From Gemmatimonadota bacterium (lineage in GTDB: Bacteria; Gemmatimonadota; Gemmatimonadetes; Gemmatimonadales; GWC2-71-9), in assembly GCA_009692185.1 (NCBI GenBank), contig SHZT01000003.1, forward strand, positions 186,001 to 250,000: a stretch of 64,000 nt of DNA, in the 5' to 3' direction. A program made the translations under genes and the position numbers. Below the pieces are notes generated by a model. The model searched no databases, had not been told where the DNA came from, and saw nothing but the letters and a program-made list of their open reading frames with translations. This document shows positions 7,329-42,719 of the stretch, piece by piece (the first letter of the stretch is position 1; each line of letters opens with the position of its first letter).

Positions 7329-7434
7329 ATGTGTGTAAGTCTTTGTTGTTAAATTGATTATGCGTTTTATGAAATACCACTGTGGCCCTGCAACGCTCCA
7401 AGATACTCCTTGGGCCCAGTGTCGTCAAAGCAGG
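7329..7434 (-). promoter_or_regulatory. Probable parA promoter region
   Basis: AT-rich leader just upstream of parA on the minus strand (TTGTTAAATTGATTATGCG near 7345-7365 on plus) between parS and the ParA start. It is the only sizeable spacer before a four-gene run, so a promoter here is likely. The exact -35 and -10 boxes are not assigned. Confidence 0.4.
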
Positions 7435-39052: not shown

Positions 39053-39881
39053 ATGCGCGGTTTCGTGCTGGCGTGTGCCCTTCTCGGAGGGTTTTCGCCA
39101 TGCGTCGCGGCGCAGGTGCCCGCTTCCCGATCCCGCGACTATCTCTTCGCCTCGAATGCGGACGACGCTCGCGCCCTCCTGGTCAACCCGGCAGGCCTCG
39201 CCCGACCGATTGCGTCTCTTTTTGGCGAATTCTCGAGTGTCCTCGCGGCAGACGGCGGCCGTCGCCTGGGGCAGTACAGCTTCGGCGTGAGTTCGCGGAG
39301 CGCCGCCGTTGGCTACCAGCGCGACCTCTGACAGCCTGCCCAGTATTGGCACGTGGCGGGTCGCCGGCGCGATGGCGCTCACGAAGCTGGCGCTCGGCAC
39401 CAGCATCGCGTTCCACAAAGGCGGGCGGTCATGGGATGCGGGCATGCTGTACACGCCGCTCCCGACCGTATCGTTCGGGCTGGTCGTTCGAAACCTGGGA
39501 CGACCGGTGGTACGGGATAGCGCGCTTCGGATCGTCGTGGCCAGCGCGGTCACGTTCCGGCCGGCCCGCGGGGCGGCGCTCACGGCCGAGGTGCTCGGCA
39601 CCGAGCGACGACCGGTCGCGGGCTACGACCGGCGCTACCGCGCGGGCGCCCAGATCGTGTTGCCGATCCGGTGGCTCGTTACCGCCACGTCTGCCTTTGA
39701 ATTCGAGTCACGGCCAAGTGGGAACAGATTGGGACGCTGGAGTATCGGAGTCGCGTTCGGCAGGCTGAATCAACTGCTCGGGGTTGCCACGACAGCGGAG
39801 CCGGAGGGTGTGGCGAGAAACTTGGAGGCCTACAGTCTCGCGGCGATCGCCAAGGGCGTCACCCGCCCAGGACCCTTCTAG
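39053..39881 (+). pseudogene. Predicted outer-membrane/PorV-PorQ-like protein, frameshifted
   Basis: An N-terminal signal peptide (FVLACALLGGFSPCVAA) and a segment with ALLVNPAGLA, as in outer-membrane proteins of the FadL/PorV kind, run to a TGA at 39329-39331. The next frame (LPSIGTWRVAGAMALTK to TRPGPF) continues the same beta-rich protein, so one extra base near GCGCGACC (39319-39326) would explain the break. Restored length is about 275 aa. Its TAG stop shares CTAG with the convergent dnaN gene. Confidence 0.65.
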
Positions 39882-40987
39882 TCCACCAGCCGCAGGGGCA
39901 TGACCAGGCAGAGGTACGCAGCCGGATCGTCCCAGCCCGCCGGCTCGATCGTCGCCGCACGCTCCGGGGCCTTGAAGCTGAACTTGACCTCGTCCGTCGG
40001 CATGTACTTCAGCACTTCAAGCAGATAGTTCGCGTTGAAACCGATTTCGAGGGGCTCTCCATCGTACGATACGGCAATCTCGTCCTGGGCTTCGCCCAGG
40101 TCCGGCGTCGAAACGGCGAACCGGAGCGTTCCGCTGGAAAATGCCAGGCGGACCCGATGGGTCTGGTCGCTCGCGACGACACCGACACGCCGCAACGCCG
40201 ATGACAGTGCTTCCTTGTCAATCGTGGCGACCTTGTCATTCTCCCGCGGAATGACCTGCTCGTAGTTGGGATACGGACCTTCGATGAGCCGGGTAAAGAC
40301 GCGCGTATCGCCGGTCCGAAAGCCGAGGTGGTTTTCGCTCTTCGCGATTTCGATCATATCGGCGGCACCGAACAAGCGCCGGATCTGTTCCAGCGCCTTG
40401 GGTGGCACGATAAGGTCAGCTGATTCCTTGGCCCCGGACGCCGGAACGTCCATCTTCGCCAGCCGGTGCCCGTTCGTGGCCACCATCCGCATCTTCTCGC
40501 CCCGCAGCTCCCAAAGCACGCCGTTCAGGATCGGGCGGCTTTCCTCGGTCGAGGCGGCGAACGAAACGTGATTAACAAGCTTGAGCAGGTCGGCCGACGT
40601 GACACTCCACGCCTTGTCGAACTTGACCGGTGGGAAGTTCGGGAACTCTTCCTTGGCAATTCCGAGCAGCTTGAACTTTGAACGGCCACATTCGAGGTTG
40701 ATCCGTTGCTCACCCGCTCCGGTGATTCGCACAGCAGCGCTCGGCAACTCCCGGACGATCTCGACCAGCTTTTTCGCCGGCAGCGTGACCGCGCCTGGCG
40801 CGTCAACATCGGCCGGAACGAGTGTGCTGACTGCGATATCGAGATCGGTACCGGACAGCCTGAGGCCATCACTGCCGGCCTCGACGAGAATGTTCGCCAG
40901 AACTGGAAGTGTGGTCTTTGCAGGAACGGTCGGTGAGACAGCCGCGAGGCCATCGTGCAAACGTTCACGGGTAATTGTGAACTTCAC
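39878..40987 (-). CDS. dnaN: DNA polymerase III beta sliding clamp
   Basis: 369 residues from GTG 40987. Three clamp domains are visible: an N-terminal KFTITRERLHDGLAAVSP, a middle region containing EFPNFPP and ESRPILNGVLWE, and the conserved C-terminal CLVMPLRL. It lies downstream of dnaA in the usual order, separated by a 225-base spacer with origin-like features. recF does not follow. Confidence 0.97.
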   Translation of the reverse strand: MKFTITRERLHDGLAAVSPTVPAKTTLPVLANILVEAGSDGLRLSGTDLDIAVSTLVPADVDAPGAVTLPAKKLVEIVRELPSAAVRITGAGEQRINLECGRSKFKLLGIAKEEFPNFPPVKFDKAWSVTSADLLKLVNHVSFAASTEESRPILNGVLWELRGEKMRMVATNGHRLAKMDVPASGAKESADLIVPPKALEQIRRLFGAADMIEIAKSENHLGFRTGDTRVFTRLIEGPYPNYEQVIPRENDKVATIDKEALSSALRRVGVVASDQTHRVRLAFSSGTLRFAVSTPDLGEAQDEIAVSYDGEPLEIGFNANYLLEVLKYMPTDEVKFSFKAPERAATIEPAGWDDPAAYLCLVMPLRLVD

Positions 40988-41212
40988 GAGTTATCCCGAC
41001 CGGGAAGCATATGTAAAGATACTTCTATACCTATTTATTATCATAGTCGTAGTAGTAGAGGCACCGGAAAACTGTATAACCGCTCCAACTCCTTCCGTTT
41101 TCGAATCATGTGAGCCCACCCATCGTGTGGGTTCACCGTCGGATCTGTGGAACGTTCGTGGAATCACCCGGAGTTTCCGCCCGTACTCAACAGTATCCCC
41201 AAGTTTTCCCGG
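40988..41212. other. oriC: Probable oriC core in dnaA-dnaN spacer
   Basis: In plus-strand order: an AT-rich block (about 41008-41046), TAG-TCG-TAG-TAG-TAG (41044-41058) resembling a DnaA-trio, the GC-rich GGCACCGG (41060-41067), then a reverse TTATACAGT box (41071-41079, 7/9 to TTATNCACA). Further weak boxes are TTATCCCGA (40990-40998) and CGTTCCACA reversed (41146-41154). This order matches the basal unwinding element described for Bacillus subtilis. Origin function is inferred. Confidence 0.6.
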
Positions 41213-42595
41213 TTAGGGTGCGGACAACTCCCGGCGCGCTAGATCCACCCGGTCCTTGAACTGCCGGTCGCGCTGCATGGTGTCCTGGACCTTGCCCAAA
41301 CTGTGAATCACCGTTGAGTGGTCGCGCCCCCCAAAGGCCTGCCCGATTTCAACCAACTGCATGTGCAGGAGATCCCGGGCGAGGAACATGGCCACCTGGC
41401 GGGGGACCGTGAGCGTCTGGGTGCGAGCCTTGGACCGGAGACCCTCGGGCGTCACACCCCACCGGCGCGCAACGATCTCCTGGACCCGGTCGATGCTCGG
41501 CAGGGCGGCCGGATGATCGGCCGCGGCGTCGGCCGCGCGGATCTTATCCGACAGCGCGTCGCGGGTGAGCTCGATGGAGATTTCGCGGTGCTTAAGTGAG
41601 GCGTAGAGCAGCAATTTGATGATGCATCCCTCGAGCTCGCGCACTGAACTCCGCACATGCTCGGCGATGAACCGCAGTACGTCGTCAGGGATCATGAGTT
41701 CGAGATGGTCTTGCTCAGCCTTCTTTCGCAGGATCGCGATCCGGTGCTCCAGGTCCGGCTGGCCGACGTCGGCCACCATCCCCCATTCAAACCGGCTGAT
41801 CAGCCGTTTTTCCAGCCCCGGGATTTCCTTGGGCGGGCGGTCGGACGTGAGGACGATCTGCTTGCCCGCCTCGTGCAGGGCGTTGAACGTGTGGAAGAAT
41901 TCCTCCTGGGTCATTTCCTTGCCTTCGAGGAAATGCACGTCGTCCACCAGGAAGATGTCCACTTCGCTCCGGTACTGGCGGCGGAATTCGGGCATGGTGC
42001 GCGAGTGGATGCTCTCGATGACCTCGTTGATGAACTGCTCCGCGCCCATGTAGGCGACGCGGGCATTGGGCTGTTTTTCGAGAATCGCGTGCGCGATAGC
42101 CTGCATGAGGTGGGTCTTACCAAGGCCGGTCGCACCGTAAATAAAGAGCGGATTATAGGTCTTGGCGGGCGCTTCGGCGGTTGCATAAGCCGCCGCGGCA
42201 GCCAGTTCGTTCGATTTCCCGATAACGAAGGTGCGGAAGGTGTAGCGATCATTGAGCGGCGTGGCCCGTTTCAGCGGCTTCGTGGGCCCGGTACTCGGGG
42301 GCGGCGCGACGAAGAAGTCCATCTGCGGCCGCTGGGCGCGCTCTTCCTGTACCTGGAACGAAACGGTCAGCGCCTGGCCCAGGGACTTCGCGGCCAGACG
42401 GGACAAGAGGGGGGCGTGCTTGGACTCATTCCACTCGACGGCGAACTGATCCGGGGCGGCCAGGACCAACCGGCCGTTGCTCAGGCCGACAGGTTCAGCG
42501 GGCTCGAGCCACGTGCGGACGGTCGCGTCAGGAAGTTCCCGCCGTGCCTCTTCGAGCACACGGCTCCACGCTTCTTTGGCTGATAGTTCCATCAA
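41213..42595 (-). CDS. dnaA: Chromosomal replication initiator DnaA
   Basis: 460 residues with all four domains. The AAA+ domain has Walker A GATGLGKTHLMQA and Walker B VDIFLVDDVHFL. Domain IV contains the DNA-binding signature GGRDHSTVIHSL. The N-terminal domain I is about 80 residues, and domain II is short and Pro-rich. It is divergent from rpmH, the common order at bacterial origins. Confidence 0.97.
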   Translation of the reverse strand: MMELSAKEAWSRVLEEARRELPDATVRTWLEPAEPVGLSNGRLVLAAPDQFAVEWNESKHAPLLSRLAAKSLGQALTVSFQVQEERAQRPQMDFFVAPPPSTGPTKPLKRATPLNDRYTFRTFVIGKSNELAAAAAYATAEAPAKTYNPLFIYGATGLGKTHLMQAIAHAILEKQPNARVAYMGAEQFINEVIESIHSRTMPEFRRQYRSEVDIFLVDDVHFLEGKEMTQEEFFHTFNALHEAGKQIVLTSDRPPKEIPGLEKRLISRFEWGMVADVGQPDLEHRIAILRKKAEQDHLELMIPDDVLRFIAEHVRSSVRELEGCIIKLLLYASLKHREISIELTRDALSDKIRAADAAADHPAALPSIDRVQEIVARRWGVTPEGLRSKARTQTLTVPRQVAMFLARDLLHMQLVEIGQAFGGRDHSTVIHSLGKVQDTMQRDRQFKDRVDLARRELSAP

Positions 42596-42719
42596 CTAGT
42601 GCGAAACCGGGGGGTGGGGGGTACAGGGCAACCGAACGTATTGCTGGCATGTGGAAAAGTCAACCTTGACCGGAAACGTCTGGCGCGGGTAGTTTTCCTG
42701 CCCCGAAAGAGAGTTCAGG
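42596..42719. promoter_or_regulatory. Divergent dnaA/rpmH control region with DnaA box
   Basis: The 124-base spacer between dnaA and rpmH holds TGTGGAAAA (42650-42658), the complement of TTTTCCACA, one base from the consensus DnaA box. It could serve dnaA autoregulation or belong to the origin. A G-rich run lies at 42609-42621. Promoters for both genes must be here but were not resolved. Confidence 0.5.

Follow-up and report, generated by a model that had tools for sequence, protein, structure and literature searches.

Does the spacer between dnaA and dnaN of this Gemmatimonadota bacterium carry an element that opens the chromosomal origin (oriC), comparable to the basal unwinding system (BUS) of Bacillus subtilis? 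The latter is also located between dnaA and dnaN. It consists of DnaA-boxes 6/7, a GC spacer, DnaA-trios and an AT-rich DUE (PMC6669920, PMC8287927, PMC10721633). The locus was analyzed within a window of 64,000 nucleotides, positions 186001-250000 of contig C14. This contig is 301,573 bp long, and the whole genome comprises 2.63 Mb on 30 contigs.

The predicted origin and its DnaA protein

The genes flanking the spacer were assigned by their Pfam domains:

41213-42595, minus strand: dnaA, replication initiator, 460 aa (Bac_DnaA, Bac_DnaA_C, DnaA_N)
39878-40987, minus strand: dnaN, sliding clamp, 369 aa (DNA_pol3_beta domains)
40988-41212, no strand: dnaA-dnaN spacer, predicted oriC, 225 bp (dnaA-dnaN order, GC-skew sign change)

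The position between dnaA and dnaN and the sign change of the GC skew, calculated from contig C14 of this draft genome, are both consistent with the prediction of an oriC here. The skew amounts to -0.027 and +0.018 over 70 kb on either side of the spacer, which is a small amplitude, and the minimum of the cumulative skew of the contig lies 3.8 kb from the spacer. Two relatives are available as single contigs. For G043, with dnaA at base 101, the sampled skew was near zero just past dnaA, positive in all five stretches between 200 kb and 1.8 Mb past the gene, and mostly negative beyond 1.8 Mb, with positive exceptions at 3.0 and 4.2 Mb. No clear skew pattern was seen in the 19 stretches sampled from G021.

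Among named records, those nearest by DnaA come mostly from Gemmatimonadetes MAGs, although a record with 62% identity carries the label Nitrospiraceae. We aligned the window DnaA to 8btg and checked the eight residues that form the trio-reading and arginine-finger set in B. subtilis numbering, the functions of which were taken from PMC10721633. All of them (N187, I190, I193, R202, K222, E223, E228, R264) are identical to B. subtilis. Hence, the DnaA encoded in the window has both the arginine finger and the trio-reading residues expected of the cognate protein of a BUS. A DciA family protein is encoded in 19 of 21 genomes of the lineage, including that of the window, and a DnaB_2 (DnaD-type) match was found in none of the 21, with positive B. 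subtilis and L. lactis controls. Therefore, helicase loading in this Gemmatimonadota lineage is presumably DciA-type.

Many relatives encode a second protein of ~600-1000 aa with two DnaA-type ATPase stretches (e.g., L169:956-2878, minus strand). The ORF beside this example resembles an MglA-like GTPase, a name given by eye. The window's genome yielded no match to such a two-ATPase DnaA-like protein.

A probable opening element in the spacer

The features recognized in and around the spacer are the following:

41005-41048, no strand: AT-rich tract, candidate DUE (40-bp GC windows)
41044-41058, plus strand: DnaA-trio block TAG-TCG-TAG-TAG-TAG, the complement of CTA CTA CTA CGA CTA (sequence, trio score)
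41059-41062, no strand: short GC-rich spacer from the second box register to the first trio (sequence)
41063-41071, minus strand: second tandem box register (-13), TTTTCCGGT, 5/9 to TTATCCACA, probably very weak
41071-41079, minus strand: DnaA box 1, TTATACAGT (plus strand reads ACTGTATAA), 6/9 to TTATCCACA (register -21 as in relatives)
41022-41027, minus strand: mirror trio-like TAG-AAG at the offset of the f1/f3 AGYAG (20% of shuffles reach its score)
40991-40999, plus strand: weak convergent box candidate TTATCCCGA, 7/9, across the AT tract from box 1
41193-41201, plus strand: additional box-like 9-mer GTATCCCCA, 7/9
42650-42658, minus strand: box-like TTTTCCACA, 8/9, upstream of dnaA

The initial annotation had described an AT-rich tract, TAG trios, a GC-rich segment and a reversed DnaA box in the order and polarity of the B. 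subtilis BUS. We found this arrangement on the plus strand: the AT tract is followed by the five triplets (first TAG at 41044-41046, last at 41056-41058), by 12 bp (AGGCACCGGAAA, 41059-41070) and by the reversed box. The proposed likeness to the B. subtilis BUS also holds for the 12-bp spacing between box and trios and for the location between dnaA and dnaN. The extent of the GC-rich segment has to be revised: GGCACCGG overlaps the degenerate second box register (41063-41071, minus strand, 5/9), leaving a true GC spacer of ~4 bp (41059-41062). The box had been said to deviate from the consensus, and it does, with 6/9 matches in box 1 and 5/9 at the second tandem position.

When the spacer was shuffled 2000 times with its dinucleotides preserved, its best 5-triplet trio score was never reached. 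At least four TAG among five consecutive triplets occur at two places of the contig, both strands counted; the place outside the spacer is GC-rich, and first-order Markov simulations gave an average of 0 such runs (20 simulations). The 40-bp segments starting at 41005-41009 make up four of the six with the lowest GC content on the contig (at most 22.5%, compared to 65.7% overall). The sole other 40-bp stretch of the contig with an equally low GC content is found at 7336-7376 of the window (starts 7336-7337). A scan for sigma-70-like sites detected none between 40900 and 41300, and a reading of the element as a promoter of this type was dropped.

The published BUS search rule asks for a box with at most two mismatches to TTATCCACA, or a known species-specific box, and three NAN trios. 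On the trio strand, three consecutive TAG lie next to the box, followed by TCG and TAG. The distance of 12 bp is within the limit of 16 bp, and the box is reversed relative to the TAG strand, which is the correct orientation; the published distribution of box-trio distances peaks at 10-13 bp (PMC8287927). It is the box that departs from the rule, since TTATACAGT has three mismatches and the second tandem position four. A search allowing two mismatches would therefore miss this genome's own box. Judged by its layout, the module is homologous in position to rule-passing BUS and is predicted to work like one, without being a rule-passing member itself.

Fixed and variable parts of the element across the phylum

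DnaA was found in all 61 genomes of a first collection (the window's own and 60 relatives) and, at E <= 1e-90, in 184 of 200 genomes sampled phylum-wide. We compared 126 dnaA-dnaN spacers or downstream stretches in batches of 60, 50, and 16, the first of which takes in the window and six loci from named-record DnaA matches. All 60 loci of this first set, the window counted, show the dnaA-dnaN order. The spacers were grouped into f1/f3, f2, and other families, the split between f1/f3 and f2 being based on DnaA identity to the window (68%) in the first set and on family labels in the later sets.

At least three of five triplets were CTA or CTG in 114 of the 126 spacers (f1/f3, 55/57; f2, 28/30; other families, 31/39). 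The position of the trio block was picked by a score in which trios and, to a lesser extent, a nearby box count positively, and these counts are therefore descriptive and do not represent a blind test. The register of the boxes is not dictated by this score: the mean match to a direct box peaks at -21 and -13 in all three groups, and TTATACAGT of the window sits precisely at -21.

For the individual triplets, 116 blocks were retained after leaving out ten of the 126 with uncertain anchors (L125, L021, L146, L148, L212, L224, L246, L249, L253, L221). The first trio was NTN in all 116. In-phase CG-centred triplets (CGA or CGG, corresponding to TCG-type on the trio strand) were present in 38 blocks, a frequency that may be somewhat inflated by the anchor score, which slightly favours CGA, and never at the first trio. 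Therefore, the TCG of the window is no flaw peculiar to one genome. The pattern suggests that the central adenine may be dispensable in trios away from the box. The published rule is passed by 52 of the 126 spacers (f1/f3, 15/57; f2, 10/30; other families, 27/39), and the window is not among them.

In one group of relatives (g66; L021, L269-L288), the CTA trios are replaced by an ATGA[TC]GA-type block, located behind the DnaA boxes, in 21/21 spacers; the motif is present in 1/68 others. The DnaA of this group has N187, I193, R202, and E228 unchanged and V instead of I190; this V also occurs in 11/68 others. The block is possibly a natural switch of the trio sequence.

A mirror motif on the other strand and a convergent box

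On the strand opposite the trios, past the AT tract, we observed a trio-like motif, AGYAG. Six rows with uncertain anchors (L125, L021, L146, L148, L212, L224) were left out of the mirror-motif counts and of the arm-swap test described below, and L002-L005 and L026 were additionally excluded from the discovery groups. AGYAG occurred in 21/38 spacers of the f1/f3 discovery group (shuffle mean 6.1) and in 13/17 of a second f1 set (shuffle mean 3.5), which had been displayed before counting and contains several near relatives of discovery genomes. The f2 groups gave 6/13 and 6/12 (shuffle means 2.9 and 3.2) and the other families 5/19 (shuffle mean 1.8). Reversed and reverse-complement controls were near background.

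The motif was also counted after clustering at 75% identity, with L004 and L207, apparently one contig by their equal length and spacer, merged in the deduplicated counts. It was then found in 21/34 f1/f3 spacers (mean 5.7, maximum 14 in 1000 shuffles), 11/24 of f2 (5.7, maximum 12), and 6/21 of the other families (2.2, maximum 9). Within offsets 13-22, a range set after the positions had been seen, the f1/f3 count was 20/34 (shuffle mean 1.34, maximum 7). A mirror 3-trio score exceeded all 500 shuffles in f1/f3 and in f2; in the other families it was not significant against 500 shuffles.

The other families have a convergent DnaA box (at least 6/9) 33-38 bp past the trios in 13/22 spacers (shuffle mean 1.1; direct boxes 0/22), a count made in the same batch in which these boxes were first spotted by eye. 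A prediction fixed beforehand was then applied to a second batch: 12/16 spacers had a convergent box at offsets 30-41, or 5/9 when only non-redundant spacers were counted (shuffle mean 0.63, maximum 4; direct 1). In f1/f3 and f2, we did not find the convergent box; right-hand boxes are mostly direct there. We had also stated in advance that mirror trios would be phase-locked to the convergent box. The first batch had given 75 in phase versus 21 and 36, but this prediction failed in the second batch (5 in phase versus 26 and 12, non-redundant).

As a control, we inspected 43 non-Gemmatimonadota origins with clear trios. AGYAG was present in one of them (shuffle mean 1.5), and inverted boxes of at least 7/9 in nine (shuffle 4.9), so there may be a slight right-hand inverted-box tendency outside the phylum. 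The neatest two-sided arrangement observed comes from a non-Gemmatimonadota spacer, L050 (Bacterium UASB270), with trios, an AT tract, an opposite-strand TAGTAG, and a perfect convergent TGTGGATAA.

Gemmatimonadota origins might be two-sided, with a short AT tract flanked by the BUS towards dnaA and by a mirror half towards dnaN. The mirror half would comprise the opposite-strand trio-like run and, in several families, the convergent DnaA box. DnaA filaments might then engage both strands and prepare the symmetric loading of two helicases, in a phylum in which we found DciA and no DnaD-type protein. We regard this model as possible, though on the doubtful side; it is reasonable, unproven, and firmer for the phylum than for the window genome. 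The window alone offers TAG-AAG (41022-41027) and the 7/9 convergent candidate (40991-40999), neither of them strong, and TTATCCCGA, which lies inside the dnaN leader, could be a chance match.

Interpretation of the element

We consider it very probable that this element serves to open the chromosome's oriC and works like the BUS of B. subtilis. DnaA bound to the reversed box or boxes (41063-41079) would nucleate an oligomer, which would extend onto the TAG trios of the plus strand (41044-41058) and capture their bases. The duplex would then open into the adjoining AT tract (41005-41048), where the helicase would be loaded. The order of the sequence parts, the box register, the conservation across the phylum, the trio-reading residues of DnaA, and the local skew switch argue for this reading; binding, unwinding, and use are its predicted components. 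The three mismatches of box 1, the four of the second position, the small skew amplitude, and the skew minimum 3.8 kb away count against it, as do the patternless skew of G021 and the exceptions on the other arm of G043. A further point against it is L083 of the same genus, for which identical scoring also gives poor values for the trios and the box. With so degenerate a box, the deficit is probably made up by other boxes of the spacer or by a cooperative array of DnaA.

The same weak boxes could mean that the spacer is oriC with an ancestral BUS in decay, in which other boxes or the AT tract bring about opening and the trios are a remnant. Both the window, with 6/9 and 5/9, and its sibling L083, where the sequence is CTATTACCACTATGG and the box scores poorly in register, fail the published rule. 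However, four of the five triplets are still TAG, the AT tract is extreme, CG-centred triplets are widely tolerated, and the trio-reading residues of DnaA are intact, which makes decay improbable. A plain CTA/TAG repeat, arisen by chance or replication slippage, deserves hardly any credence: short trinucleotide repeats do occur, and the contig has its second TAG-rich site, but the spacer comparison already contradicts this reading, since the box register is fixed in spacers that are otherwise near saturation (median identity past the trios 0.57, shuffled 0.49).

Trios and mirror motif could also pair with each other, as a hairpin within the leader transcript of dnaN or as a cruciform, and regulate dnaN instead of replication. 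Many relatives indeed have CTACT...AGTAG inverted repeats ~20 bp apart. When arms were swapped between genomes, however, own-genome arms gave a mean of -7.91 and swapped arms -8.38, and 176 of 200 swaps were equal or better. Own arms thus pair no better than swapped ones, and compensatory change is not apparent. Moreover, the trios adjoin DnaA boxes in a fixed register, and no terminator-like site was found. We rejected a hairpin of trio and mirror motif on the arm-swap test, and regulation of dnaN by such arms is very unlikely, still more so than decay.

Relation to known origins

The BUS-like module shares with that of B. subtilis its order, strand polarity, tandem boxes, the 12-bp distance from box 1 to the trios, TAG as the commonest trio, the trio-reading residues of DnaA, and the dnaA-dnaN position. 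It differs by the three mismatches of the window box and by the CG-centred trio, which is frequent in Gemmatimonadota. The tandem box registers are 8 bp apart in this phylum and, by eye, ~9 bp in Bacillales spacers. Gemmatimonadota relatives add the mirror motif and, in some families, the convergent box, and the lineage has DciA, with no DnaB_2 (DnaD-type) match found.

The oriC of Thermotoga maritima offers a partial parallel. Its eTrio consists of three TAG repeats between AT elements, within an AT-rich DUE bound by DnaA, and there is an inverted box within the box cluster; unlike the arrangement described here, its minimal origin of 149 bp has a DUE with five flanking boxes (PMC10316083). 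In the passages of this paper that we consulted, second-strand trios are not described. The DnaD recognition element (DRE) of B. subtilis is likewise a single-strand element facing the trios, and a role in guiding the second helicase has been proposed for it, but its sequence, 5'-TnnT-3', is simply complementary to the trios (PMC10201434). In contrast, the mirror motif forms a trio-like run of its own past the AT tract, in genomes in which no DnaB_2 match was found.

Of 2070 origins, 1755 have a predicted BUS (PMC8287927), and finding one in a further phylum was to be expected. The module described here, BUS-like and with a degenerate box, is mostly ordinary, BUS already being known as widespread. 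'Gemmatimon' is absent from the main text of PMC8287927, and no paper combining 'DnaA-trio' and 'Gemmatimonas' was found in the literature searched; a prior listing in supplementary tables is possible. New are the mirror trios that lie past the AT tract on the opposite strand and the convergent DnaA box in other families. Neither the search results nor the consulted passages of PMC6669920, PMC10721633, PMC10201434, PMC10316083, PMC13326638, and PMC6323995 describe an origin with trios on each of its strands.

The 126 diverged spacers add a distinction between fixed parts of the element (first trio, box register) and variable ones (CG-centred trios), and the same set reveals a conserved element on the opposite strand. 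This mirror-strand element is the part deserving follow-up. How helicase loading is directed in bacteria that lack DnaD is a stated open question (PMC10201434). If Gemmatimonadota origins are indeed two-sided, they would make this question testable with short DNA scaffolds.
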